Source: Nymphaea colorata (lineage: Eukaryota > Streptophyta > Magnoliopsida > Nymphaeales > Nymphaeaceae). Taken from it: DNA of 64,000 nt. Shown one piece after another: positions 27,751 through 62,021 of the stretch (the first letter of the stretch is position 1; the number at the start of each line of letters is the position of its first letter). Location: assembly GCF_008831285.2 (NCBI RefSeq), contig NC_045141.1, forward strand, positions 23,094,742-23,158,741. The letters are read 5' to 3'. Under the pieces are notes generated by a model that was given only the letters and a program-made list of their open reading frames with translations, searched no databases and had not been told where the DNA came from. The translations under genes and the position numbers were made by a program.

Positions 27751-27950
27751 GTGATCTCTCCACTGTCTTTCGATTTATATGATCTGCTGCTTAGTGAGTC
27801 AGCAGGACTCATCACTTGTGTATTTCCCTTTTTCAGCTGAGAAAGAGAGAATTTCCGGAGCGATAGAGTTCCTTAGCGGCTTTGTTCCCCTCAAGAATCG
27901 GCTTCTTCCTCACAAGAACCTCTTGCTCTCTTTGTTCAAGAACCATAGCC

Positions 27951-29054
27951 ATGTTGGCGTCTGTTCCCAAGGCCACCACCTACCTCCCCACATGCCAACA
28001 CTCACCCCTGAAGAAAAGCTTCCTCCCTCCTCGAACTCTCCACCTCCCCACCAACGGCCAGCATCAAACCAGAACCCTCTTCACCACCACCCCTAAATGC
28101 ACCTTCCAGAACCCTAAACCAATTCAGACTGCCGCTGCCGCCGTCACAGCATCTAACACCGTCGCTACCCCTTCCGATGCCGTCGGCGTGTCCACCTTAT
28201 CTTCCCCTCAAGTTCGGGTGGACATCCTCTCCGAGTCGCTCCCTTTCATCCAAAAGTTCCATGGTAAGACCGTCGTCGTCAAGTACGGAGGAGCAGCGAT
28301 GAAGTCGCATGCCCTCCAGCAGGGCGTCGTCCAGGACCTTGTCCTCTTGAGCTGCGTCGGCCTGCGACCGGTCCTCGTCCATGGCGGCGGTCCAGAGATC
28401 AACCAGTGGCTTCAGCGACTCGCAATCGAGCCCCAATTCCTCAACGGCCTCCGAGTCACCGACGCCGCCACCATGGAGATCGTCGAGATGGTTCTCGTCG
28501 GTAAGGTCAACAAGGCCCTTGTTTCCCTCATTAACAAGTCCGGCGGCTCCGCTGTCGGCCTTTCTGGCAAGGACGGCCGCCTTCTCACCGCCCGACCAAA
28601 CCTTGCTGCTACGGGTCTTGGCTTTGTTGGTGACGTTGCTAGCATTAATCCCAAGATCCTCCATGCTCTCATCGAAAATGGCCACATCCCTGTGGTGGCT
28701 TCTGTTGCTGCCGACGAGGCGGGTCAGGCGTACAACATCAATGCCGATACGGTGGCAGGGGAGGTGGCGGCGGCGGTAGGAGCAGAGAAGCTGATATTGC
28801 TGACGGATGTGCCGGGGATCCTGATGGATCGGACAGACCCGGGGACAATAGTGAAGGAGGTAGACCTCAAGGGGGTGAAGCGGCTCATAGAGGAAGGGAA
28901 GGTCTCCGGCGGAATGATACCCAAGGTGAACTGCTGCATCCGTTCGCTGGCTCAAGGGGTGAAGACTGCAAGCATCATCGATGGCCGGCTGCCACACTCT
29001 CTTCTGCTCGAGATCCTCACCGACGAGGGTGCTGGCACCATGATCACAGGCTGA
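27951..29054 (+). CDS. NAGK: N-acetylglutamate kinase, plastid
   Basis: Phosphorylates N-acetylglutamate with ATP, the controlled second step of plant arginine synthesis, in the chloroplast stroma. Single exon, 367 aa including a Ser/Thr/Pro-rich transit peptide of roughly 70 residues. The mature part starts with the N-terminal helix [20 protein letters not shown], followed by the amino acid kinase fold: [16 protein letters not shown] for substrate and phosphate, [36 protein letters not shown], and the C-terminal SGGMIPKV and GAGTMITG. The N-helix and C-lobe are those that bind arginine and the PII protein in Arabidopsis. The ATG at 27951 (GCCATG) is the first in frame; the frame also continues upstream without an ATG. 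Strongly GC-biased third positions compared with the surrounding DNA. Intact. Confidence 0.97.
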
Positions 29055-32000: not shown

Positions 32001-33344
32001 TGAGTTCTAAGAATTTGTACACACAAACACATATACAACCAACCAATTATGGAACAGTCAAATAACTCCTTATCTCTGCCGCGAATGCTCAAAAGAAACT
32101 GTTTATCTCTTACGAGCATACATAAGGGGAGATAAAGGGAGTTGTTCCAACCATTACCTCGCCGATGTGTTCATAGTGTTGAAATAAATTCTCTGGATGA
32201 TCACCCTCATCGACCATAAAGTGAGAACATGGAAGCTTGTGAGGACACAATGAAAAACTGGATTATAATTTATATCAAATTTTTTTCCTTTTGTACAAAA
32301 TAACAGGAAGTTGGAATGATTTACCTGGCCGTCTCATGACTATAGACCAGGTCAGATGCAGCTGACCTGGTGTGCAAAACCACCAGGCCGACAGACTTCC
32401 TTGTTGGTGTAACATGAGCAACAGAATGACAACTCAGCCAGTGACTATGGATCACGGCATTTTGTACCTGAAACACCAGGCCCTGATCTCACTTCCATCT
32501 ACCATGATCTTGTCATCACATAAAGCATGGCCACCAGGCCTGCAAAATTTCAAGTGAATACATATGCTAAAGACAGAATGGAACCCAATACAAGCTTCAT
32601 TAATTCTATGCCTAGACTTGCATTTACTAGGAGCTAGTTCGTAAGTCCTTTTTCCTTTTTTCCCAAATCGGGCACCAACTACATAACAGAGTAACGTTGA
32701 GCGGCGGCGATCACAGGAAGTTGATTTAGAAGTTGGTCATGGCAATAGGAATAGGCCACTGATATGGATCATAGATTACAGGTTCATGTATCCCATGCCT
32801 TAGCAACTAATATGTATGAAATACCCTCCGTTCCCTCACCTCATGTAGCAAGAAATATCTAATCATGAGATTTAAGGTTCAAGGGCAAGAATCAGCAGGA
32901 AAACAACTACGACACGTGAATTGAAGCTGGCTATCAGCACCTAAGCCACAAACATTTACAAGGGGTTTCTGATGTGATTTTTGCAGCAGTCTTTAGAAAC
33001 AAAACCTCCAAAACATGGTTGTTAAACTGTGAGTTATTTGAATAAGTTCATCTATCAATAATCGTTTAACAAAATGCCATTCATCGATTGCTTAAGGAGC
33101 ATTTCCTAAGTGACGAATGTTACCCCAGTTAAACAGACTAAGTTCACTTTAATCAAATAAACAAAGAGAGTAGTATACCTTAAAGTAAAGAGGAAGCCTG
33201 TAGACTCCACGCCCCTGTCAAGTATGATTCCCCTGTACAACCTCCATATTCGTCAGCTAATTCTGCGATCCAAGATGTGTAACGATAGTCCTCTTCCACT
33301 CTGAAGAACTATCAAACTGAAAGATGGACACTGTGAAAGGGTAA
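29055..33344. other. Convergent intergenic region
   Basis: Lies between the 3' ends of NAGK (plus) and the GT47 gene (minus), so it holds both 3' UTRs. T-rich tracts occur near 29890-30070. A perfect 38-nt tandem duplication sits at 31830-31905. Short open frames (29609-29887, 31802-32119) resemble nothing known. Confidence 0.5.
31830..31905 (+). repeat. 38-bp perfect tandem duplication
   Basis: Two adjacent identical 38-nt copies, each starting ACCATATTGAATGCCTTTG and ending AAGATCCTTGG, at 31830-31867 and 31868-31905. Lack of divergence suggests a recent slippage or repair event. Confidence 0.95.
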
Positions 33345-36300
33345 TCAAGATTGAATTTGGTTCAATCTGTTGAACCATACAGAATGCAAAATCATGTGGA
33401 AGATGTCATATTTGACAGGTTTGCTGTGCCATAAGAAATGTTTTTGCACTTGCTTAACATTCTTCTGCAGAGCAATGTACCTCCTAAGAGGAATAGCCAT
33501 AAGAATATCCTTCAACTTGGGTATGTCCTTCTCTGCCACAACCACTGAAAATTCACTCCAATTTAAAATGTCATCAAAAGGTAGCACAAAATTGTCTGCT
33601 ATTATCACAGGAACACACTCATTGTAAATTGCCTCAACTATCCTTGGGCTGTTAACCTCATAACCCATAGGGCAAATACAAAACTTGCTTGATTTCATAT
33701 GCTGAACATAGGACATCTGTCTAGAAACTCGATTTGGTAGAGGTCCATAGATTTTCATGTCTTCATCTTTATCAGACCAATACTTTAGAAGTACTGGCCG
33801 TACTCGTCCATGCATGTTTCCTGCAAAGAAAGCAAGGATTGACCGCTGGGATACAGGTCTTCCACCAAGGTATCTGAGGGGTCTCTTTGGAGTGCGGATA
33901 GTGGTTTCCGGGAGTGAGACATCTTTCCCACGAACGAAAAACCCTTCTGACAGATCGGCGTTGCAAAGGGCCTTTATGGTGTTATGACAAAGTTCTTCGT
34001 GTTCCTTCGTAGTGTATGGACCCTAGAGAGAGAGAGAGAAAGAGAGATCCATGAGATGTAAGGAAGATTTGAAAATGTTCAAGCCAAAAGTAGGATCACA
34101 GAGTTTCAGATAGATTGCTGGCAAAATGATGCTTACCCAGTCATGGCAAGCGACAAGAAAGTGATCTGCTCCTCTTGTTCGATTCCAGAACCGGTACTTT
34201 GATGCAATTGTATTCACATAGTCCCTCAGATAGATAGAAAGTGGGCGCATATTGTGCGAATTAGGAACATACAAAGCTAGCTCTAACTGATGAGAGCCAT
34301 AAGGTAAGTAAAACAAGTGTGCCTTCTCTGGGTCCTTCACTACGAATTGTCTGTTCTCCTCCATCAATTTCATAAACCATCCTTCAGATGCATAAATTCC
34401 TTTCAGCTCTGGTGTATGGAAAATTGGTCTCTCTCCATCTGGGTATATGTAAACTTTAAGTATCTTTTCCATGAGCTCATAGCTCCTGAATGTTTAGAAA
34501 TGGAAAAACAGAATGCTGTCATGAGTTTTCATAGAAGAACAGGTGATAAAAGTGGAAAATATACATGCATGCTTTCAGAAAATAGTACATCCCTATCTTT
34601 TGCCAGGTAGGTGACAGGGCCAGAAGTAAACATTCTGCCATATTAGGATGAATCATGTGGAGACAATAAGGAGCAAAGACAGTTCAAAATTCAGTGCAAC
34701 TCAAAAGTAGAGAAAGCACTATGTGGCCATAGTGCAGAACTGGAAATCACTATCAGAAGTGCACTGCCCATATTAGATTGACCACATAGACATTGAATGT
34801 CATCAGAACAATTGTGAGTATGTCCATTTATCGTATTCCAACAATGGACATAGCTGGTTACTATATTTCCTTGCATACATGATCTTCAGGTTCAGTATAG
34901 AATATTGAAGTTTCTAAGTTATTCGCAGTGCAAAAAAATACAAAAAACAGTAGTAGTTGTAGTTCTACTAATGATAATAACGATTAATATAATATAACAA
35001 CCATAATAGTAATACAGAAAAAAGATAATGGAGTGGAAGCCAAAACAGTTCTCACCAATTTTTCCATTTTCCTTTTTCCTTATTTGGTTAGAAGATACTC
35101 TAAAATTTTTTCCCGGCTGTGTAAGCAAAGTGAAGAAAAATAGACCTGCTATTGCCAAATAAATAGAAATTTATGTCTCTCATTTACATTTTAAAGATAC
35201 TGATACTTCCACAATTGCTAATCCTATGGCCCAACAAATTTTCCCATTGGCTAGTGATATTTAACATGTAATTTCTAAAACAAAAAGTTTGACAACACAT
35301 GCTATATTCAGAACATCACTGCACATAGGTAAGTCCATTTCTATTCTTCACTATGTTCTCACTTGCCTTTTTCCTTTGTCACGTGAGCAAATCCACCAAG
35401 CTCCCCGCTGCCATACTATTACATGTTGTGTAGACAATGGTTCTGAACCTAGACAGATTTATGACAAGATTTCGGCTACATAACACAAGCCTCCTTAGTC
35501 CTTACTGGTGTCATACCAACAGATGCACTTGGTACCAGTATGGGTCAGCCAGTTTTTGAGCTTAATTCAATCTATTTTATCTTCCCACCACTGCACCAGA
35601 CATGTAGCCTGAGACTGGCATAACAAATATCCGGTTCTAACTTTGTAACATGCAAATTATTTATGGTGCATGTACTTGCATGCTTCAAATGCGTATATAT
35701 GTTCTATGCCTAGATAGAAGCCCTGTAGGTGCTTAGTTATATTCGACTACATAATAAAGCTTCTTGAACATCCCTAGTAAGCTGGAAAATTTCCATGCTT
35801 TGTACGATGAACTCCACGGAAAACTGATTTCTTATTACAGTGGAACATACTGTTAGCATCTTCCAAGCTCATTATAATGACATAACAGGGATAAGAAATA
35901 TCCACCCATCAAATTCAAGCATGTAAGGAACCTCTCAGCATGCAGCATATTTCCACCAGAAGTAGAGCTCCTAAATACAGGTCCACATATCCACCCCACA
36001 ATTTAGAGCAAACTTAAAACCAAGATGCATATTAAGTAAAAGCATCTCATGGGTGAAACTGTGTAACAGAATTGATCTAGGAAACCATGCCGTCCTCTTC
36101 CAAAATAACTCTGCGACATGGATTATAGAAAATACCTAGCAACCAGGAGTGGAGACAGCGTCAGAGAAGCCTGACCTCTCCTGACATATTGAGAAATCCC
36201 AAAAAACAAATACAAAAAATTGAAAAGGACATTTGATGGTCGCCATATCATAAGATACTATCTCTTATAAAAATTTTACAAAGCACATGGCCCTCCTATA

Positions 36301-41458: not shown

Positions 41459-44400
41459 TCATGGTTGTTGGCAGCCATTGAACAAGCAACTTGAACGGTG
41501 ACTACGTGAAACAATTACAATAAGAAGGACAATTACTGAAAGCATGAATGAGGATCTCACCGCCTCTTCAAAGGCATCTTCCTTCTTCCCCTTCTCTAAT
41601 GGTTGGAAAATATCAGCCAAGAGATCAGCAATTCTGTCAATAAACTTCATGACCCTTTCCTTTGCCTTCTCCAAAATCCACCTCAGAATTTTGATGGTTG
41701 GATCCTTGTCTGAGCTGTGGTTATCTGGAAGTTGATTTCCATCTTTCCCCCACAAAATCATAGTGAAGCATAAATCAATACACATAATTTATTTTCGTGA
41801 AAGACGAAGGAAGAGGACATGAGATTGAAGGACAAGAAATAGACCTGCGTAAAATGAATCTTGGAACTCCCGTACCGCCTCATTTTTCATAACGGCATCC
41901 CAAACTGCCTTGTCGGAAGCTAAAGAAACAACCATTTTCTGCACGTAAACAAAGAGGCTCAGAATATCGAGAACATTAATTTTTATGAAAATCCAGCGGC
42001 CAAAAAGAGAGATGGCAAACACATATGGTAAAAGTTGCTTAGAACAATCAAGAAAGCTTGAATATGTTGCTGTAACTCTCATTTAACTGCCAAGGTTTTA
42101 AACCACCTGGTTGGCCCGTGGGAAAATCCCAATACAAAATATCACAAAAACTGTGCCTGATACCATGATTACTGGAGACACTTATTTCAGAGCATTTTCT
42201 AAGAAATAACCGAGTTGAGCAGAGTATCATAACTTCATAAGTAATTATGCCACCTGGAACTAGACACCTATTTATACACTTGTTTGGGAAGAGAAACTAT
42301 GATTGATATAGTGGGTTGCGTTTTAGTTGTCCTCAAAGCAGTCGGAGTTCAAATCTCATGAGCACCACCATTAGGCCTGGTGGTGTGGTGGTGTGGGTAC
42401 TAGCCTTAGAGTTTTACATACGGTTTGACCAAGTCTCATGTTCCAGTGCAGCTTTTCTCATGTTAGAAACGAGGAAAAAAAAACATTTCAGCTGACATTA
42501 CAACTGTATTTCTAGTAATTCACGAAAACATCACCATGTCCAAAGGTAGTATGTGTTGCATACTGGAACCTTTCCCAAACTTCGATAAGAGAACCTGGTC
42601 ACTGGTAGTGGTGTACGGTGTACTTACCTTAAAGATCTATATGTTATCTGTTAAAGCGGTCTCCTGGAACTCCAGCATAAGTATAATGTATAAGTCAAGA
42701 CTCCAACATGGTTTCTCAGATCGCTCCCTTTTTTGGGTTTTCCTTGACTCAAGAGTAGCCAAGTGAAACCATTGTCACCACTAAGAGCCATTTGACTTGT
42801 AAATAAGTAGCAACTTGCCTTCTTTCTTTTGAAAATGTAAACATTTCTTTCTATACGACAGAAATTACTTCATTCATCAGATAAAACAGGTTCTCAATTT
42901 TATCACCAACTATTATGCTAAGACACTTTATGAAGCTTCCTCAACTTTTTTCAAACAGGATGAACCTCGTGGTTGGCTTGCTTGATCATTGCTTTGATCA
43001 GAAACCAGTGCATAAATGGAGCTCATTTCATTGACTACACCAAATCCAGGTAATCCTGGCATGCTGTCAGAACAAAGCCTCAATTTGCATGGTTCACTCA
43101 ATCGTCAAGCATCACAAACCATAACTTATAGTAACTGCAATCCAAGAAGGCTGCATGAAAATACTGGAATCCATTGACGTCGAAGGCCTCTATCTAGATT
43201 CAATACCATAAAGGGTGCCAAGTTGCAGTTTCTATAGTTGAATCAGTTGGACCATACTTCTTACTATAGCTACAGGCCCTCAACATGAATGCAAGCAAAA
43301 TCTATCCATCCTGTAATCCCTGATAGGATACTTTTTCCATTCAAGGAGGCACTTGTCAGAACTTCGGATGCAAGCTCTTGTATATGCAGAAAGAATTATT
43401 ATAGTCTAGTGTAACCAGTTGAGTGTAAATTGTGGTAATGGACGAAATGAAGCAGATTCCGCAGCCATCAGAAATTTTTTCACTAAGGGTAAACATAGCT
43501 CCATTCTGAGGCATTCGTGATGGTTCTATAGCAACGTAACATTTAACAGTTAACTCCAATTGAGCAGTGTAATGTATTTGGTATGGCCATATAGGGAAGA
43601 AGAAGCTCTAATTAGTCATCCTGCAGCAATGCCCTATTTATGAGATCTATCATGCTGCAATAACCTGGTGCCGAGAATGTTGGAGATGAAGAGTAGAAGC
43701 ATGACATCAAGTTGTTTCCATGATTGGGGCAGTCAAATGCGTAGCAAGTAATGTATTAAAAGCCTTTCTCTGATCTTTTGCATGACACCAAGTGCCAATA
43801 AATTGAAAGCTATAAAATAAATTTGGTCCATCAGGCTTTGGCTGCCACATGGGAAGAATAGAATAACTCATTGGATTATTGAAGAACTGATACTACCACA
43901 ATACTCAAGCCTACAAGTTTTCATATGAATACACCCTAATGGCCTTTGATATAAGATTATAAGTACTTTGCTAGGTATCTAGTGCTGATTATTAGTATAG
44001 TTTATGCATTGATAGCAACGCTCGGGAACCAAACATAAATTACTCAGAATGTTAATTTTGTGATGTAGAGTCCCTTCACAATTATTACAGCTGTGAGTTC
44101 CAATTTTAAATCATGCAACCCGACTCTGGCGATAGTATGACATTAATGTGATCTCATATTGCTAAATTAGCTAACTCTGTTCTTCTTACCACAGCCATTG
44201 TTAGACGTTTAGTTTATCATGCTTCTAAACGTTTATATACCTCTAATTGCTAACACAGACTCAGTCTCAGAGTCAGTTGGGAACAAAAAATTGACAGCAA
44301 TTTAAGTTGGAAATGGGATGGCACATGAAGAACCCAACCTGAACAGAAGGATCTGTATGCAGCAAACGAAATGCATCAAGAACTCTCTTACATCCATCAG

Positions 44401-47215: not shown

Positions 47216-48419
47216 CCATCTTAATGGTGTATTGAGAAATAGTGCCATTATCAAGTCAAGTGGAGGGGTTCTTGTCCCACTTCTTTTGTCTCTTTCCACT
47301 CCTCCAGGTGGACCAAAAATACGAAGGCAGGTGGACATTGAACCATTTTTGAAGATCAGGAAAAACATATCTCTTAAGTCAGAAGATGAAAAAATCTACA
47401 AGAGCAGAATAAGACCACTCATTTCATCATGCTCACGGCTCACCCTCTAAATAAAAGAAAGCCACACATAGGAGACTCCCACGCGTTGGAGAAAGAAAGC
47501 AATGAATTGTGGCGAGGGTTGGATGATGAAAATACTGAGATGTGTTTACATGTGAACCCTCCAAATTCAACAATGAATATAATAGTGGAGAAAATGATGA
47601 AATAGATAGCTGAAATACTGGAATAATAAAAGATAATTCAACAATGAAATTAAAAATGGAGAAAATAATTGCATTCCAGGGAGGAGGAAAGGCATTCTTA
47701 TTTTTGACGGCCTTTTTAGATTTGTCTGCAAATTTTAAGGTAACATAACGTTTATCGAACAGAAAAATGTCGCTTTCACTCATCCGAAGATCCAGGAGAC
47801 ATATTTATACCGACGCCGTGCCGGCGTGCCCCCGATTTGATTCGGCACGGACACTGTGTTGACGGAAGAGGAGGTCTTGACAAAAGAAGGCCGTGCAAGG
47901 TGAGCCTGATTTGAATTCCGATCGGAAGATCTCAGGTTCAGGGTTTCTCGAATTCAGTGTTGGAGAAACCCTCTTCCCCCGCTGCAACGAGGATTTCTCT
48001 CTCCCTCTCTCTCTCCGCGCCTTGCCGGTAAGTCCGTATCTCTCTCTTAGCCGGCCTAGGATTTTGCCGGTCGAAACCCTCGGCTATCCGTCAGCGTTCC
48101 GTCACAGTCTCCATCTTCACCAGCCGAGGGTTTCACCCTTTCAACGCGCCTTCGTAACAAAGACGCTCTCCACTCGTAAAGCTTTTAACCGTCACTCTTT
48201 TTGTTTCCTTTCCATCTAAAAAGATTCAGTTAGAAAAATGAGAGAAAGTGCGGTGTTTATGACATTATGCCTTAAGCTAGGGGTATTTCAGTAAGAAGAC
48301 TTCGGCTTAAGTCCAGCTCACCCAGCCGACGGTCTGGATACTCCACATCAAATCGGAGAAAGGAGGGCCACGAGGGACGAAGAGCAGGACGAGCAGGAGC
48401 TAGGGTTTCCGAGCCGACG

Positions 48420-48423
48420 ATGG
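48420..48423 (+). other. RPL15-like first exon (ATGG), presumed start of the cytochrome c1 mRNA
   Basis: The sequence GGAGCTAGGGTTTCCGAGCC, ACG, then ATGG|GTAAGC matches the leader, start and donor of RPL15 at 58670. Similarity upstream and downstream is patchy, so this copy is older than the one at 49209. It supplies only Met and the first base of the next codon. Confidence 0.6.
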
Positions 48424-51400
48424 GTAAGCGATTCCCTCCCCCCTTCTCTCTTTCTCTTTCCGTTCTCCTTGGTTTCTCCATCGTAGATGAGAAGATCATC
48501 TGACCTTGGAGAAATGCATCCCTTTTCAGTGGACGGATTGCGGTTTTAAGTTTTCGATTCGTCCGTTGTCTTACAATTTTCTTGGAAACTACTGGTGGGA
48601 TTGTCTTCGATATTATCCTCGTGATTTTTGCTTCTTGTTATATTTTTTCGTTGCTTGCTAGTTGTTTTGCACGACTTCTATTGTATATGTTGTCTGTATA
48701 TGAATATTTGGTATTGTGCTATTAGTACATGAAGTTACATTCATAGTTCATATCGTTATCGGTTCCCTTTCCGCCGTATATAGGGTTTGGGATCTGCAGG
48801 TATCTGTTTTTTTGGGATTACTGTTAGAAAATTGTTGTTTGCTGGAGAAATGGTGAGGATGAATATACTCCATCGTATGGTTTGATTATAATGGACAGTC
48901 AGTAATGATTGATATATCTGAATGAAGTGTTGATATATCACTACGTAAACCTGTAATTGAATAATTTTAACTAAAAGTAAACCTGTAAAACGTCGTCGCG
49001 TTTCTGAAATTATAACCGGGGGCAACCTCGATGACAAAGCAGTGCACCGGGCTCAAGCAGACGGCCCACATCCGGTTCAAATCGGACGGACATCGTTCAT
49101 CTAAAACCAAAACCCTGAAAAACCTAATAAAGCGTCGCGGGCGTCCGCCTCTTCCCCTCCGTTCAGGCACAGGAAGAGGCGGGGAGGTCTAGGCTTTCTG
49201 AGCTGACGATGGGTAAGCTCTCTGTCTCTCTGTCTCTCTCTCACACACATGGACGAGAATTGTCTCGATACCGTCCTTGTCTTCTTCATCGTGTTTGAGG
49301 ACTTCTCATTTTGGAGAAATGCAATTCCTTGCTAGTCAATTATGATGGTTTTTTATGCGTTTGTTCTGTTTACTGACCGTCGTTCAGGGGGTGGGATGGG
49401 TGGCGGGAATGCTTGTGAAGTGTCTTCACCGAAGTCTGTTGTAGTTTCTGCTGCCTACCTTACCTCCTCTTTGATAAAGGTTTCCCACCATTTGTCTTGC
49501 ATTCTCTTTTGTGATTGGTGGCCGTGGCGTTTCTTTCCTACTGTATCGATGCGTGATCTTACGATATGAGCTTGGGTTTGTGGTTCCATTGACCGCCGTA
49601 GTTTTCTGTGGGTTTGATGCATATTACCTTTTTATTTTCGGCTACATATGCTTGTTTTTAATGTGTTATTAGATTAAGATTTGGTTTTCTTTGTTCCCAT
49701 GTGTAGAATTTCGTGGCAGTTTTGACTTGAAGTGTCATGCTTATTTGATTTTGATTTTTCATTTTATGATTTCCGTAAGACTGCTGTTGTTTGGCCAAGT
49801 AGCGATCTTTGAAAGCTGAGACGTGCACTGATATTCTAAATAGATGAAACAGCTGATTTGTCTTCTCTTTGTGGTTTTGTTGCTTTTAGATTATTTGTCC
49901 TTGTCCTGCTGTGCCGCTTGGGAACTCTTCAATGAGTTCTTAGTGATACATCTGCTGATTGTTCGATCTGCTTTTGGTGGATATTGTAACTTTGCATTCT
50001 GTATATATTTTCTTTAATACTTGCTGTGTGTATGTGCACACTGACACAAACATGTGTCTACTTGAAGATGTTGTTGCATAAGAAGCCTCAATAGGTGAAG
50101 CACTGAAACCTAATCAAGGTTTACGTTCTGTCGTTTTGCCCTCAATGGTTGCTATTAGTCTCTCGGTCTCGTTATTAATGGTGGATGATGTTATGTTATA
50201 TTAAAACTACATTTTTGAAATTGAAAATAACTTGAATGAATTTAGGGTACCAATGCATTTTGAACTGGGTTGAGAACATTCTCATCATCTAACAAGTCGG
50301 GTCTCGTCTCCTTTTTCAATAATGGTTGAATTTTTTTTTGGTTGTCAAGAAGCAATGAGTAGGAATATATGTAGTCTTATAAGTATTATCTGACTGCACC
50401 AATCTATCTGTAGTTGTATTTGTTAGACAAAGGGTGAAGGATGAAATTTCAATTTTAATCTGCAAAATAATGAAATGACAGTTTCTACATTTGTTCAATT
50501 GGTTCTACCTTGGTCCGGACGGTAGGATCATTGGGTTTCAAGGAATGTAAACTCCATATTTATATATGAGGCTGAAGGGACAATAATATGTCATAGACTT
50601 GATTCAGGAGTTTAGTATCCTCATGATTCTGAAGTGACAATAATATGGCATTGACATAGATGATTCAGGAGTTCACTGTCCTCATTATTATGTTATGTTT
50701 AGGGGCTTACAAGTATGTCTCCGAGTTATGGAGGAAGAAGTAATCTGATGTCATGAGATTTTTGCAAAGGGTGAGGTGCTGGGAGTATCGCCAACAGCCT
50801 TCAATTATGCGATTAGGACATGAAGTTAGGTTCATAGTTCAAATCGTTATCGGTTCCCTTTCAACCTGTATATAGGGTTTGGGATCTGCAGGTATCGTTT
50901 GGGATTACTGTTAGAAAATTGTTGTTTGCTGGAGAAATGGTGAGGATGAATATATTTCATCGTATGGTTTGATTATAACAGATTGGAACGAAGTGTTGAT
51001 ATATCACTACTTAAACCTGTAAGTGAATAATTTTAACTAAAAGTAAAAATGCCGGGAAAAGATGCAAATGTTAAGAGGAAATAATGTTACATTGGTGTGG
51101 TATCCAAAACCATGCGTGGCTAGTCATATTGGATAATATGAGATCGGAGAAACAAAATGCAGACCGTAACATCAGCCTTCGATTATATTATTAGACTTTT
51201 AAATCCAATATAATGTCGAGAAAAATGTTATGTTATCACTCAACAGGCTGATCTGGTCTTTCGCATGGAGTTATCAAAATTTATTTAGATTTTAGAGTTT
51301 AGACTTGTTTCAAACATTTTTTTCTTTTAAACTGAAGAGATTGTTGTGTCAATGAAAAAAATGCCCAAATGATGCTCAATTGAGATGAAAGCTGAGACTT

Positions 51401-54400
51401 TACGGCAGTATTAGGTTATGTATGGCTGTTGATTTATATCCTCTTTTAAGTCCTAATCAGTAGGAAACTGTTTCTTGATATAACTGCTGATTGTTTGGTC
51501 TTTTGTTGGTGATGTACATTGGGGTGCTTGAGTGTGGATTTTGTATAATGTGCAGAGTGAACTTGGTCATGTTTTTAATTGGGCTGAATTCTGAGTCCAT
51601 TCTGATCTCTGATGAAATTTCTATCAACATGTGAATTGAGCTCCTTTTTCCAAGGATTCTTCCCAAGTAGTTACCAAGCAAAGAATGTTTGTGTTAAAAT
51701 TTTTAAAGAAGAAAATGATAGCAAGGATTTTGAGTATCCTAGACACTACCCAATTGTTTGATGGAAATGGGACACCGCCCCACCAAAAAAGATTGAGCAG
51801 GGGCTGAACTTCCTCTTAGTTTCTAAAGGAATAAAATGAAAATTTACAATCTATTAGACTCATTACGTATTCTACTTATGAACCTGTTTAGGAAATGAAT
51901 TACTTGACTTGTGGTATATTCAGGAACCTACAAGTATGTCATAGAATTGTGGAGGAAGAGTGCTGACAAGGCTCGCCATTTAGGCTACAAAGCCACACAG
52001 GTAATTTTCTTATTATTTACTGCTGTGCAGTTTCAACATTACTTTTTTCAGATGTTGCAGTATGAAAACCTGTTTGAAATTTAGTGTTTTTCCACTTAAT
52101 TTCTATATTGCACTTGTGATTCAGACTAGTATTACTACCTCTACTTTGTTTTATTGACTATTGCTCGTGAATTGTGATTGAGGCGGCATTTGGAAGGCCT
52201 TGTGATCATTGGATTTCCTTGAGCTTTTAGAAAGAAAAAAAAATGTCCTTTCGAAAGTTGAAGCTTCTTACAAGCCTGATCCTGTCATCACCAATCTCAG
52301 TTTTGATTCCCTGTTCATTTTTGTGAATGCCGATGCTGCCTGATTGAGCAAGCATTGTAAGAATTTGCCCATTTCTCTGCTGTTTCCTATCTTTTCTGAT
52401 TGAGGTTCTTGATTGCTCTGTATGTTAATAATTGGCAATGTTTCTATAGCTGCTGCTACTCTCTTGGGGACATTGATTTGTTTTTTAATGCATATTTCAT
52501 TTTGGATTTCTACCAGTGATTACAGAAAAAGAAAAGTTGAAAGGGGATGCAAAAAATATAATATTCATTTTCTAAAAAATTCTGCAGTATCTCTTAATCA
52601 TAGTCCCACATACTGAACTCAGTTATACATTGGCGAGCCAGAATTTCATACCAAATCTCAGAAAATGTAGGTAAAAAGTTTAAATATGAAAAAATTGCAA
52701 AACATACTTGATCAGTGGGCTATTATGCACTCTTTCAAAGATGGTTGCTTCGTTTCAAACCTCCTGTTTGTCTCTGCGCCTTACCTCCTTTATCTCCTTT
52801 ATCACTGGGCAATCATTTTGGGGCCTTAGCTGATGATATGTGCTGCTTCCCTCTTGATGATGAAGCTTATCCCTGTCTATGAGCGATAATAAAAAAAAAA
52901 TAATGAGAAGAAATAAGGAACACTGTTTCTATTATATAAGAAAGAAACCAGAAAGTAATAAGCAAGTTATGAAAACAGTTTACAAAAGGCTGTTACATTT
53001 TCCCTTTGATATTGTTTTAGGAAAATCTCACTTTGATATTGCGATATTTTCAAAATATCACTTATCTGTGGCACACTCTTAGCTTGACATTTCATTACCT
53101 TGAGGCTTTGCTAATTTATTATATTTCTGATTTAGTGGAATCAACTATTATTGTTTTGCTATTTCGTTGGTGAATAAATAGTAGTCGAGTTAATTTATAT
53201 TTCAATCTGCAAAAGCAAGTGTATTTTGCTCAGCATTGGCAACATATGGAAGGGAAGCAGAGTCAATTTCCAAGCATATCATACCAGTTTTAGTTTCATC
53301 TAGTCCCATAACAAATTAGAGCTCTCTATGCAACACCTTTTTTGTTTATTTGGTTTATGTCCTTGAAATGCATGCCTCACATGGCAATTTCTTTGTTCAC
53401 CTTTTTGAGTGTACAAACTTTGCATTATTGGACAGAAACAACTATAGTATCCAATTGTTTCTAGTCTGCATGTTTCTTGCTGGCTATATGTAGAGGTTTG
53501 TTTTCAGTTTGTCAAAGATTTTGTATATGATGTGAATGCAGTCAACTGTGTATTCTACTTAGAGATTTATGAAAATGTTAAATAACAGGATGGATGTGCT
53601 CTCTATTCTGGTGTCAGTTATGTTGGTAGTTTGGTCATAGAAAGCCACTGCCAGCTTTTGTCCAAGCTCTATGGGACAAAAAATTTTAATCATTGTGACG
53701 GCCTTGCCTTTTTTTGTTTTCCGTTTGTTCAAACTCTGAAAAAAGGTATTAATTCCTGTTTTCTTTTGTACGTTTTGTACCTATAAGCTTGAGTTTTTAC
53801 CTTCTTTGAGTCTACCAAACTTGGGTGCTTCCACAGGAATTAGGGAATCAGTGTCCATATTTATTACAGAAATGGTGATGTGGTTCCTTCTTTTGCAGGC
53901 TCATCCAGTTCCTTCATCTTTTGTGTTGAAGCAAGAGCATGGTGATGCTTGGTCTGCTGGTTCAAAGTCTCTAAGGGCATTGGCTTTTCTTGGTGCGGGA
54001 ATTTCAGGAATTCTAAGTTTTGCAAACTTGGCTACCGCTGATGAGGCAGAACATGGCTTGGAATGCCCAAGTTATCCTTGGCCCCACAAGGGGATACTTA
54101 GTTCCTATGACCATGCATCGTAAGAAGATGCTTAATCTTTGTATATTCTGTTATACCTTAGGAAAGAAAATGAAGAAACCTTTCTTGTTAAATATACAAT
54201 TTAAGTTTATCAAGGTCCATGCATTATCAATTTTCCGTAAGTGCAAGGTCATGCAATTTTGATGCTTGGAAATGCTTGGACATTTTTTTGCTTCCTGTTT
54301 CTTTAACTTGATGTTAGATAACTCTTCCTATCCATTTGCTTTTCAGGATATTTATTTGTAGGTTTAGCAGTCTTATGAATATGCTTGTAGAATATTTATG

Positions 54401-55813
54401 TTGCCTGTAACACACAAATGTAGGATTCGTCGAGGTCACCAAGTTTATCAGCAAGTTTGTGCATCCTGTCATTCAATGTCTCTGGTTTCATATCGCGACC
54501 TTGTTGGTGTGGCATATACTGAAGAGGAAACAAAGGCGATGGCGGCTGAGATTGAGGTTGTTGATGGTCCCAATGATGAAGGTGAAATGTTTACCCGACC
54601 TGGGAAGTTAAGTGATCGTTTCCCCCAGCCATATGCTAATGAACAAGCTGCAAGGTTTGCTAATGGTGGGGCCTATCCCCCAGATTTGAGTCTTATTACA
54701 AAGGTGCAATTCTCATTATGATGCTTGAAGAGCCTTCTGGGTTTTCCTTCAATCTCAAATCTCTCTTACTGTGTTACCTCTTCTCGTTTTCTTGGGTGTT
54801 GTGCAGGCTCGGCACAATGGTCAGAACTATGTTTTTGCCCTTCTCACTGGCTATCGTGAGCCACCAGCTGGCATATCGGTAACTAACTAACTCTCTTGCT
54901 CATAAGTTGTGTTGTTTATGCTTTTTCTATATTTTCCTTGGTGATGATATCTATAATGGAATTACAGATTCGAGAGGGGCTACATTACAATCCTTATTTC
55001 CCAGGTGGTGCCATAGCCATGCCACAAATGCTCATTGATGGTGCAGTTGAATATGAAGATGGTACACCTGCAACAGAAGCACAGGTAATATTATTTATGT
55101 TTTACCCAAATTTTCTAGTTTTCTGCTTTCCTGAGAGGAATATAGAATATTGAATGTTTCTTTGGTTGACATGTTGATCATGACTGTCAAATATGGCCGG
55201 CCTTGTTGCTGTCTACTGTAAAGAGAATTGTGTATGGAATTGATAGATGTTTCACTAGTAAGGGCCTTAATTGACCAAAAACTGCACTCTGTACTTTAAG
55301 CAATAATAAGATTAGCAGAATTAGCGGAGGTGGGATGTTTGATTCAGAACTTGGAATATGATAGAGAGAGAGAGGGAGAGAGAGAGAAAGAGTGAATGCA
55401 AATGTGTGAAATTGCATACTTCCATGTATAGTAGCTGCCATTTTCTATCTTAGCACTGCTCAGAGTATCTGCAATTGACATTTGAATGATGAATTCTGAA
55501 CACTAACTCAACGAGTGATTCTCAGATGGGGAAGGATGTGGTCACATTCTTAGCATGGGCAGCAGAGCCTGAGATGGAGGAGCGGAAACTGGTAAAGTTG
55601 TTTTGGCTTAGCAGTAATTTCGTTTGATTTTTATTATCTTTCATTTGCTTGATGGATGTGCAGCTTGATTTCTGGTTATGATATTTCTTCATGCAGATGG
55701 GTTTCAAGTGGATATTTGTTCTCTCGCTTGCTCTTCTTCAGGCTGGTTATTACCGCCGGCTAAGATGGTCTGTACTCAAGTCACGCAAGCTTATCGTCGA
55801 TGTTGTTAACTGA
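48420..55813 (+). CDS. CYC1: Cytochrome c1, mitochondrial, with RPL15-derived first exons
   Basis: Haem subunit of respiratory complex III (bc1), passing electrons from the Rieske centre to cytochrome c in the inner mitochondrial membrane. Certain exons: 53899-54119, 54424-54703, 54807-54878, 54968-55084, 55526-55591, 55697-55813. They encode the bipartite presequence's hydrophobic sorting part ([17 protein letters not shown]), [16 protein letters not shown], the CASCH haem site ([10 protein letters not shown]), the axial-Met region and the C-terminal anchor [20 protein letters not shown], ending DVVN. The usual first exon (MxGGG...LRRKL in relatives) is not found. The exons 48420-48423 (ATGG) and 51924-52000, both derived from RPL15, join in the exact phase, giving 954 nt, 317 aa, a normal length. 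The added N-terminus, starting [13 protein letters not shown], is basic and has few acids. Family call is near certain; the 5' end is inferred and needs transcript support. Confidence 0.85.
48726..48985 (+). repeat. Left copy of a direct repeat flanking the younger RPL15 fragment
   Basis: About 260 nt from CATGAAGTTACATTC through TAGAAAATTGTTGTTTGCTGG to TTTTAACTAAAAGTAAA. A close copy without some insertions lies at 50817-51047, immediately after the truncated RPL15 fragment. Confidence 0.9.
48990..50812 (+). pseudogene. RPL15: Truncated second copy of RPL15 (promoter, exon 1, intron 1, part of exon 2)
   Basis: This segment is closely similar to 58447-60225 over its whole length, including the promoter, leader, ATGG at 49209-49212, donor, the first intron and about two thirds of exon 2. 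Exon 2 begins at 50703 ([13 protein letters not shown]) and has a TAA at 50741-50743 where RPL15 has CAA for Gln. Similarity ends in the exon after QQPSI, replaced by the direct repeat at 50817. It cannot make eL15. Its promoter and ATGG exon look intact and could still drive transcripts spliced to 51924. Confidence 0.93.
50817..51047 (+). repeat. Right copy of the direct repeat flanking the younger RPL15 fragment
   Basis: Near-identical to 48726-48985 (ATCGTTATCGGTTCCCTTTC, TAGGGTTTGGGATCTGCAGG), with a short deletion near the middle-right. The arrangement repeat, RPL15 fragment, repeat indicates a duplication or unequal exchange event in the intron. Confidence 0.9.
51924..52000 (+). other. 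RPL15 exon 2 with 90-nt in-frame deletion, used as presequence exon
   Basis: Seventy-seven nt between TATATTCAG and GTAATT, the same phase and donor sequence as RPL15 exon 2 (60121-60287). It reads [11 protein letters not shown] then [14 protein letters not shown], against [11 protein letters not shown] and [13 protein letters not shown] in eL15. The 30 codons between are gone without a frameshift. RPL15 exons 3 and 4 are not found between here and cytochrome c1. Preserved frame, borders and lack of stops argue for selection. Confidence 0.72.
52001..53898 (+). other. Presumed intron between the RPL15-derived exon and cytochrome c1
   Basis: No RPL15 exon 3 or 4 and no typical cytochrome c1 presequence exon was recognised. 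The acceptor CCTTCTTTTGCAG at 53898 is strong. An in-frame ATG at 53872 lies just ahead of that acceptor and would give MVMWFLLLQ as a start if the intron were not used; this seems less likely. Confidence 0.5.
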
Positions 55814-58446
55814 TCTCATTCTTGGAGGATTCTTGAATATTTTCAATCGGCAATAATGTGCACCCTTGGTCTGGTAAAGCACACATTGCTACTGTTAATG
55901 TTATATCTCTGTTTTGCTGGCAACTTTTGCTACATTTGTGCAGTCTGCCTTCTGAAACTGTTAAAACCAGTATTCTAGAATGCCAATGGGCAGGATCCAG
56001 TTTTTCTATGGAATAATGTAGCTTATTTTCAATTTTTGTCTCCAAAAGAATAAAATTTATGAAGACAGGTCTTACCATATTTGCTGCTCTGCATACTGCC
56101 GTCTGGGTGCTTGAGATGATGCTGGATATAAAAACATTCCGCTTAGTTTTTTGTTTCTTTCGATAATTAGAGAATCATCCTTCGGGCAGTAAACCTGGCT
56201 TCTTTGGTTTAAACTGCTGCACCTTTGGTCAACTTCCCAACAGTGTAAAAATTTGAACTGAAGGCCCCATCTACCCGAGAACCTTTACCCAGACAAGCAC
56301 TACCTTCTGCCTCGCAAGGCCCCATCTACTTTGGTTATTGATTTAATGTCAATCCCAGTGTTTAACTGTTGATGCTGAAATTACCACCGAAGGTCCGAAT
56401 CGCGGTGGTTACTCAGCGAGTTATCCGACATCACATAACCTCTTAATTACGCATGTTATACAGGGTCTAATTTGTGGCGTCAAGGCTCTTTTGGCAACAG
56501 CAACAAGTGGTTTCACGAATCTGTTCTAAAAGTTGGGGCAAATTGGTGGAACATTGTAACAATGCTTTTTAACTTTTACTCACGTTTTGGAGTAGGTTCA
56601 TGGAACGGTAACAACAGTTGCCAAACAGACTGACCTTAAAACTCCCTCCTTTCTTTAGGGCCAGTGCTTTTGTTATTTGGCCTGCGGGCTGTGGTATGGA
56701 ATTCTTAAATATGTACGTATAAGAATCCTGTAAGCTCATGCCAGTTTCACGAAAGTTATTCGATAGTTTGAGCCAAGGCGGTGATCGTACTAGCGTGCTA
56801 TAAATTTCAGGGTCGGTTTTAGTTTCACTTGTTTTAAAACGAAATTGCACGTCAAAGTCCAGCAGCATCTCTAATTGAAATCACTTGTGAAGTGATCGTG
56901 TATAGCAAAAACCTCTTAACTTGTTGGAGGTCTCCAAATTGTAATATTTCAACTACTGAGCTTGCAGGTTGTCGTATTAAAGTGAATTTTATGTCTCCAC
57001 CGGCAGTACGTCTGGTTCATTTCTAAATTGCAGATTCAAGGCTAACAATACAAAACCAAGATCATGGCGTCAATGCTCATGCCGTTGAAAATTCTTCAAA
57101 TGAAAATGTTCTTGCGTGAAGATCATAGTCATGTTTAACCTTCGTTGGTTTTCACTCTTTCACGAGTCAAGCCAATGGATGTGTCAGCTGGGTTTGGTAA
57201 GGTACACTCAAAGAGCTTTACAACCGATTCTTTCTGTCAATGCAAAGTATTGGGTGTTGCTCTCGTGAATGGTTTATGACCATTTTGAAAACTGAGGTAT
57301 TCTCCAAATGATACGGTATGTAAGCGGCATACCCAAGTATTGAGCACTGGTGTAAATGAATTGGTCATGGTCTTATTTATGTTGGGCAGAGTTACCCCGA
57401 AAAAACCGAACTCGTCACCAGGGCCTAGAGCTGCTTCAAGACGAAATGAAACCGATGACCAAACTTTCACCAGTCCAACTAGTTATGCTATGCCCTTCAA
57501 GACATTGTATACTATTGATTGCCGGATTTCACAACTTTTTTGGGTGCAAGCTGGTATCAGCTACTATATACCATTTTTTCAGGTACTTTTTCAGATCAGA
57601 CCACCAGATTTAGTACAAGAATCAGATTCAATGCTCGAACCTAGGAGAGTGCTTTGTCAAAAACAGGGTTGAATCTAGGTCTGAGTCTCGCCACCTAAAA
57701 GAGGGTTGAATCTAGGGCAAAGTCCGGTACGTTGATGATGCATGTGCTTAAAGGGTGGTGGATTATAACATGCCTGTTTTAGGTTTATATTTGTCATGGT
57801 CAAAAAAAGTTTATAAATCTGAGTGTCGTTCTACTGGTGGTTAAGGTGAATTATAAGCGAGGGCTGCATGGTCACTCACGGTGACCGGTTTGTGGACGTC
57901 ATTGAGTTGAGAATCTTGAGATCCTTGGGGAACTTGAGACCGATCGAGGCGTTAACTTTACTGGAAAGGTAGATGGTTTTTACTAATGAATGGAAAATGA
58001 ATGTAGGTAGACAAACATGATTACGATTAGAAAGTAATCTTATATATCAAAACTAACATTAAAAGTAGGAAAAACATATAAGTTTAAATTATTGAACATT
58101 TCAAAAAGTATGAAATAAAAGGAAGCCTTAAAAATTCAAAAATATGAAAATCAATAACAGTGTAGAAGTTTCAATCAACTAAAGTTCATAATTAATAAAA
58201 ATGTGTTAAAAAAGTCGATTACAAATTGAGTTGATTTACCTAGTGCAACTCTTTCCGATAAATTCGATTCCAATCAGGCGGTGCTATTCAAATTTAAGAT
58301 ATCTCTGGTATATGCAAGAACTTATTATTTTTGTGCTCTTAAAAGTTTAAAATTTGAAGATGTCACGATGGGTTTCGTGTGGATTTCTGATGTAGTTACT
58401 GCCTAAGCTGTCCTGGGTTCGAGCTTTCTCAAAGAAAACTTATAAA
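55814..58446. other. Intergenic region, cytochrome c1 3' flank to RPL15 duplication border
   Basis: Includes the cytochrome c1 3' UTR. No gene recognised; open frames at 56569-56868 and 57237-57672 have no family features. Near 58390, CCTGGGTTCGAGCTTTC resembles a B box and lies about 45 nt before the point where similarity with the second RPL15 copy begins. Confidence 0.5.
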
Positions 58447-58669
58447 AAGTCATCGCGTTTCTGAAATTACAATTGAGTAAGGGGGCGATCTCGATAAGAA
58501 AGCACCGGGCTCAAGCAGACGGCCCAGATCCTCCGGGTCAAATCGGACGGACATCGTTCATCTAAACCCAAAACCCTGAAAAACCTAATAAAGCGTCGCG
58601 GGCGTCCGCCTCTTCCCCTCCGTTTAGGCACAGGAAGAGGCGGGGAGGTCTAGGGTTTCTGAGCCGACG

Positions 58670-62021
<3,352 letters not shown>

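Follow-up and report, generated by a model that had tools for sequence, protein, structure and literature searches.

An RPL15-like leader on a cytochrome c1 gene of the water lily Nymphaea colorata: a probable exon-shuffled presequence

How proteins acquire or exchange their mitochondrial address is an unsettled question of evolution. It is raised by a cytochrome c1 gene of the water lily Nymphaea colorata (assembly GCF_008831285.2, contig NC_045141.1, here C4). Within the 64,000 nucleotides (nt) analysed (positions 23,094,742 to 23,158,741 of the forward strand, hereafter the window), the body of this gene is preceded by exons that resemble those of a cytosolic ribosomal protein, RPL15. Does the gene take its presequence from these exons? 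Judged from the DNA and its relatives, an RPL15-derived presequence is the best explanation for this cytochrome c1, and we regard it as likely.

The initial annotation had joined an ATGG exon, an RPL15-type second exon and the cytochrome c1 exons from position 53899 onward into an open frame with GT-AG borders and phases 1 and 0, and joining the exons in silico reproduced this model exactly: eight exons on the plus strand yield 954 nt and 317 residues with zero internal stops, all seven introns are GT-AG, and the phase is 0 on either side of the 52000/53899 join. The chimeric gene structure is therefore real (Table 1). Its first two exons encode a leader of 27 residues that correspond to residues 1-13 and 44-57 of RPL15; the 30 residues lost between them match the 90-nt in-frame deletion described previously, as 27 codons stand against 57 in exons 1 and 2 of the intact gene. 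The four nucleotides of the ATGG exon alone would be uninformative. The exon becomes meaningful because the region 48400-48429 matches the 5' untranslated region (UTR) end, the ATGG and the donor of the intact RPL15 gene with a single difference in 30 nt, and its donor score of 6.6 equals that of the intact gene (the splice-score tables are approximate).

An intact RPL15 gene, not mentioned in the initial annotation, is located 3 kb downstream of the chimeric gene, so that old RPL15 exons 1 and 2 (with a newer insertion in their intron), cytochrome c1 and intact RPL15 follow one another on the plus strand. Compared codon by codon with this gene, the leader differs at 15 of 81 nt (81% identity) and in 7 residues, and when 51860-52080 was compared with the genome as DNA, two places were retrieved among the best candidates scored, namely the query itself and the intact RPL15 gene at 60252-60294. 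Both comparisons indicate that the leader exons share their origin with those of a gene unrelated to cytochrome c1. An RPL15 protein matched the genome seven times: three matches belong to the intact C4 gene, which they cover from 60117 to 62018 of the window, three to a gene on contig C12, and one to the copy with a stop at 50699-50824 of the window. A local tblastn search with RPL15 additionally recovered the chimeric exon at 51923-52000 and found no trace of RPL15 exons 3 and 4 upstream of cytochrome c1. The upstream copy thus consists of exons 1 and 2 only, is 30 codons short in exon 2 and does not encode a complete L15e protein. The intact C4 gene is probably the closest relative of the donor. 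Synonymous divergence (dS) of the leader is 0.62 to the C4 and 0.44 to the C12 RPL15 gene, and that between the two RPL15 genes is 0.83; in the 5' part of intron 1 the similarity to C4 reaches a z score of 5.1 for the chimera and 1.4 for C12, and in the 5' flank 3.8 and 6.4, respectively. Intron 2 of the chimera shows at most weak similarity to that of RPL15, with z scores of 1.9 for a 200-nt and 2.8 for a 60-nt comparison.

Table 1. Position and properties of the features discussed (window coordinates unless a contig is named).
Feature	Position	Strand	Details
Chimera exon 1, RPL15-type ATGG	48420-48423	+	4 nt, ends in phase 1
RPL15-type 5'UTR end, ATGG and GT donor	48400..48429	+	29/30 identity to 58650-58679 of intact RPL15
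Chimera intron 1	48424..51923	+	1434 nt without later insertion and flanking duplication; intact RPL15 intron 1, 1447 nt
Chimera exon 2	51924..52000	+	77 nt, phase 0; RPL15 exon 2 with 90-nt in-frame deletion
First cytochrome c1 exon	53899..54119	+	Presequence end, hydrophobic sorting segment, beginning of the mature part
Five further cytochrome c1 exons, to stop codon	54424..55813	+	54424-54703, 54807-54878, 54968-55084, 55526-55591, 55697-55813; spliced model, PF02167
Intact RPL15 gene	58670..62021	+	Exon 1 (ATGG) 58670-58673, exon 2 60121-60287; PF00827, E 4e-92
Later insertion	48971..50806	+	Copy of 58428-60224: RPL15 promoter side, exon 1, intron 1, part of exon 2
Second ATGG exon within insertion	49209..49212	+	Donor score 6.6
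Dead RPL15 exon-2 copy within insertion	50703..50806	+	In-frame TAA, truncated, donor lost
Duplicated block	48713..48981	+	Repeated at 50804-51047, beyond the insertion; 5.8% mismatches between copies
Second cytochrome c1 gene	within C3:24776500-24785500	minus	With upstream leader-like exon
Amino-acid kinase	27882-29054	+	PF00696, single open frame
Exostosin-type GT47 domain	33345-33815	-	PF03016

The body of the chimeric gene is a cytochrome c1 domain (PF02167, E 9.1e-100) whose translation contains the haem motif CASCH (CxxCH type) and the full C-terminus including the membrane anchor, and alignment to plant relatives places the hydrophobic sorting segment before DEAEHGL. It matched 42 distinct PDB sequences, the best being chains named 'cytochrome c1-2, heme protein, mitochondrial', which we take to be of plant origin. 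Compared with a paralogue on contig C3, the mature part has a nonsynonymous divergence (dN) of 0.018 and a dS of 0.73 (dN/dS about 0.025); over all 281 compared codons, dS is 0.77. The body is thus constrained, and, as a working cytochrome c1 requires a presequence, the window gene needs one. It might be argued that the window gene is a decaying duplicate with a functionless leader and that the C3 gene supplies cytochrome c1, given that the latter exists, that six of its six exon pieces from residue 36 onward were matched, and that its 281 codons contain no stops; however, the low dN/dS between the mature parts and a window copy that is open throughout make this a most improbable explanation, the least probable of those considered here.

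The position at which the RPL15 exons join is apparently that of the usual first intron in plant cytochrome c1 genes. The exon at 53899 aligns ungapped to most other plant leaders, starting at the probable first-intron column. At that column, the annotated relative P0052 has an insert of eight residues, with LQ at its end, that resembles a retained intron, and P0067 reads ...AALQ up to it and ASPALSP from it on. Because the ungapped alignment begins where P0052 has these intron-like residues, the phase-0 first intron is probably ancestral. The usual first-exon presequence is of the type M-x-G-G-R-x-I-x-Q-L-L-R-R-K, which does not define the family since leaders vary among plants. A profile built from 58 ordinary first exons identified no such standard-type exon on the plus strand between 45000 and 53899 (best score -3.9), and its best score in the window, 10.2 at 33073, lies beside a stop codon and far from the gene. 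As the same profile did not rank the upstream exon of the C3 gene among its five best, this result, which applies to the window, is to be read as 'no standard-type exon' and not as 'no exon'.

It is at this point that a different reading has to be considered, in which the RPL15-like exons are no more than the neutral remains of a pseudogene and cytochrome c1 uses another upstream or distant first exon, perhaps several small exons. A non-standard leader could escape the profile, as the example of C3 illustrates, and RPL15 fragments do decay in this region, the copy at 50703 having gained a stop and lost its donor. On the other hand, no leader like that of C3 was detected in the vicinity of the gene (the best tblastn hit within the window, at 42006, has an E value of 0.14), and other candidate starts are poor. 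Pairing each ATG with a phase-0 donor about as strong as or stronger than the gene's weakest one gave 24 single-exon leaders of at least four codons between 45450 and 53850. Eight of the 24 have a net charge of at least 2 with moments of no more than 0.30, and the one with a high hydrophobic moment (0.52) has a net charge of -1, so that none is both basic and amphipathic. The RPL15-derived leader, in contrast, has a net charge of +4 and a hydrophobic moment of 0.58, a value reached by 1.4% of 5000 shuffles; 45 ordinary leaders have a median moment of 0.41 (range 0.18-0.79). The moment of the unmodified RPL15 N-terminus is 0.59, and the helix therefore predates the leader copy. What speaks against the leader is its content of acidic residues, of which it has two among the first 25, compared with none or one in the ordinary and GapC-type leaders scored; a stricter filter (at most one acidic residue, at least eight codons), which left 18 pairs, would drop the RPL15-derived leader itself.

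Alternatively, a promoter within intron 2 might allow translation to begin at an in-frame ATG at 53872, immediately ahead of the acceptor. The frame is indeed open from 53806 into the exon, but the resulting leader is not basic (net charge -1, moment 0.15) and would read through the best acceptor of the gene (5.4, the highest of seven in the approximate score table), and we consider such a start very improbable.

Age and retention of the leader bear on the possibility of a neutral relic. The leader codons are 81% identical to RPL15 and the ATG region matches in 29 of 30 positions, whereas intron 1 can barely be aligned to that of RPL15, with a z score of 3.5 for the whole, 5 for the first 200 nt and about 1.3 for the middle and the 3' end. 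As only this residual similarity is left in intron 1, the leader copy is probably old; the similarity is not far from that between the C12 and C4 genes (z 1.8 and 1.4). We simulated the joint neutral retention of the ATG, the splice dinucleotides and an open frame with no frame-breaking indel, applying a factor of one third for the 90-nt deletion and an indel ratio of 18:102 taken from the insertion comparison, and obtained 1.3% for a branch of 0.15 substitutions per site and 0.06% for one of 0.3. No more than 11 changes in the 77 nt of exon 2 would be expected with a probability of 0.019 at 0.3, 0.28 at 0.2 and 0.65 at 0.15, and no more than one change in the 30 nt of the ATG region with a probability of 0.002, 0.02 and 0.07, respectively.

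Several of these figures count against a functional leader. If the copy is young, retention rises to 8.8% at 0.06 substitutions per site. The change counts are unremarkable at 0.15 and indicate constraint only if the branch is long, and the branch length is rough, as the bootstrap dS between leader and RPL15 ranges from 0.25 to 1.46 with half assigned to each branch. The low pairwise dN/dS between leader and intact RPL15 (0.138/0.622) includes the constrained RPL15 branch and is hence no proof for the leader branch. Of the 11 changes assigned to the leader branch itself, 8 are nonsynonymous, and constraint is not evident; one of the residue changes (F to Y) may be ancestral, as we presume from other RPL15 proteins. 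The changes on this branch fit relaxed or altered constraint and do not prove function. Nevertheless, the open frame, the fitting phases and the splice sites have been kept despite high divergence, and, together with the poor alternatives, this renders a neutral relic unlikely, albeit the most serious of the competing explanations.

The presequence proposed in the initial annotation thus gained support from the intron slot, the lack of a standard exon between 45000 and 53899, the poor alternatives, and the frame and splice sites kept against a decayed intron. Its wider statement, that the lineage had replaced its presequence, has to be narrowed, as the swap concerns, as far as the sequences indicate, one of two cytochrome c1 loci, a count that rests on a 101-residue query of the genome (407.8 Mb, 783 contigs). 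The gene on C3 has a different upstream open exon, assigned by reading of the DNA, which encodes MNSSRMMGLCRALANGFGRSSYSSSRGLCSETAGIRP; it is unlike the standard first exon and may be either a diverged standard exon or another swap. No convincing RPL15 similarity was found in the 9.0 kb around this gene and a further 9.6 kb upstream (best E 3.6), and the best match of the chimeric leader at C3 (E 0.031) lies outside the exons of the gene. The N. colorata genome duplication has been described with a peak of synonymous divergence (KS) at about 0.9 (PMC7015852). Since the C3 gene has a different leader and no RPL15 piece was found nearby, the leader swap would most simply have followed the whole-genome duplication. 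Among 120 listed of 7989 relatives, no cytochrome c1 protein with an RPL15-type N-terminus was present; in a protein database clustered at 90%, a query with residues 1-58 gave two candidates, none of them scored, and a 101-residue query gave none. This absence is uninformative, because the database is clustered and both queries also missed the gene's own exon at 53899.

For the chimera we infer the following course, from transcription through splicing to import, including the sequence of steps. An old partial RPL15 copy, comprising the promoter side, the 5'UTR and exons 1 and 2, would have come to lie directly upstream of cytochrome c1. The RPL15-type promoter would then give rise to transcripts in which exon 2, ending in phase 0, is spliced to the acceptor of the first cytochrome c1 intron, likewise in phase 0, and the RPL15-derived exons would have replaced the ancestral first exon. 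The 27-residue leader, with the basic amphipathic helix already present in RPL15, would serve as the matrix-targeting half of a bipartite presequence, while the retained hydrophobic segment would act as the intermembrane-space sorting half and, as it does in other cytochromes c1, direct the protein to the inner membrane.

Presequences of foreign origin have been described before. For plant cytochrome c1, an origin of the presequence from exons of GapC has been reported (Long et al. 1996, as cited in PMC2031878 and PMC6198282), and this case shares with ours both the recipient and the reuse of exons of a cytosolic protein by exon shuffling; it differs in that RPL15 takes the place of GapC as donor here, with a donor relative still adjacent, that an RPL15-type start region is included and that another lineage is concerned. 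Transferred mitochondrial genes have likewise taken presequences from other nuclear genes (PMC8317393), sometimes from genes for non-mitochondrial proteins, and the presequence of rice rps11 is cited as borrowed in this way (PMC2031878). Such genes gain their leader on reaching the nucleus, whereas here an established nuclear gene apparently had its leader replaced. Searches of a collection of open-access papers listed no report of an RPL15-derived cytochrome c1 leader. The chimera appears to be a further case of an exon-shuffled presequence, well supported by its sequence and unproven. The locus preserves an unusually full record of it, with a relative of the donor, the recipient and by-products side by side. 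To our knowledge, few cases of presequence gain keep a recognisable donor. As one genome contains the recipient, a relative of its donor, a copy that failed and a paralogue without the swap, the individual steps become testable, among them a possible cryptic targeting signal in the N-terminus of a cytosolic ribosomal protein and the effects of later changes such as S8I and the 30-codon deletion. The leaders of P0004 and P0030, which we presume to be GapC-like, join near the same alignment slot as the RPL15-derived exons. It might be speculated, with confidence that falls a little short of even, that the first-intron slot is a recurrent site of leader exchange, holding an ordinary, a GapC-derived or, in the water lily, an RPL15-derived leader with its promoter, and that the later insertion, with its second promoter side and ATGG exon, reinforced this arrangement, so that a respiratory subunit now has the expression drive of a ribosomal protein. 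If the RPL15-derived leader is in use, plant cytochrome c1 would be a gene with repeated leader swaps at a single intron.

The 1.8-kb insertion within intron 1 is 89.1% identical to 58428-60224 when gaps are counted (5.8% mismatches, 18 gap events). Neither its second ATGG exon nor its stop-bearing exon-2 copy had been noted in the initial annotation; splicing the former to 51924 would yield an identical protein. Since the insertion and the flanking block show equal divergence, both probably arose in one event, which looks like template switching during repair. The source is the RPL15 gene about 9.5 kb downstream, and short letters are common to the joins (ATTGT/ATTATG at one). The stretch at 49398 was considered as a relic of the usual leader and rejected, as it is also present within intron 1 of the intact RPL15 gene (58840).

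Upstream of the chimeric ATGG, the region 47900-48419 contains five AAACCCT/AGGGTTT words and no site II word, and the corresponding region of intact RPL15 (58200-58669) contains two and one, respectively; we take the former words to be telo-box-like, and the name of the site II motif is likewise our assumption. Elsewhere in the window, an exostosin-type domain and an amino-acid kinase, presumably of the acetylglutamate-kinase type, are encoded (Table 1).

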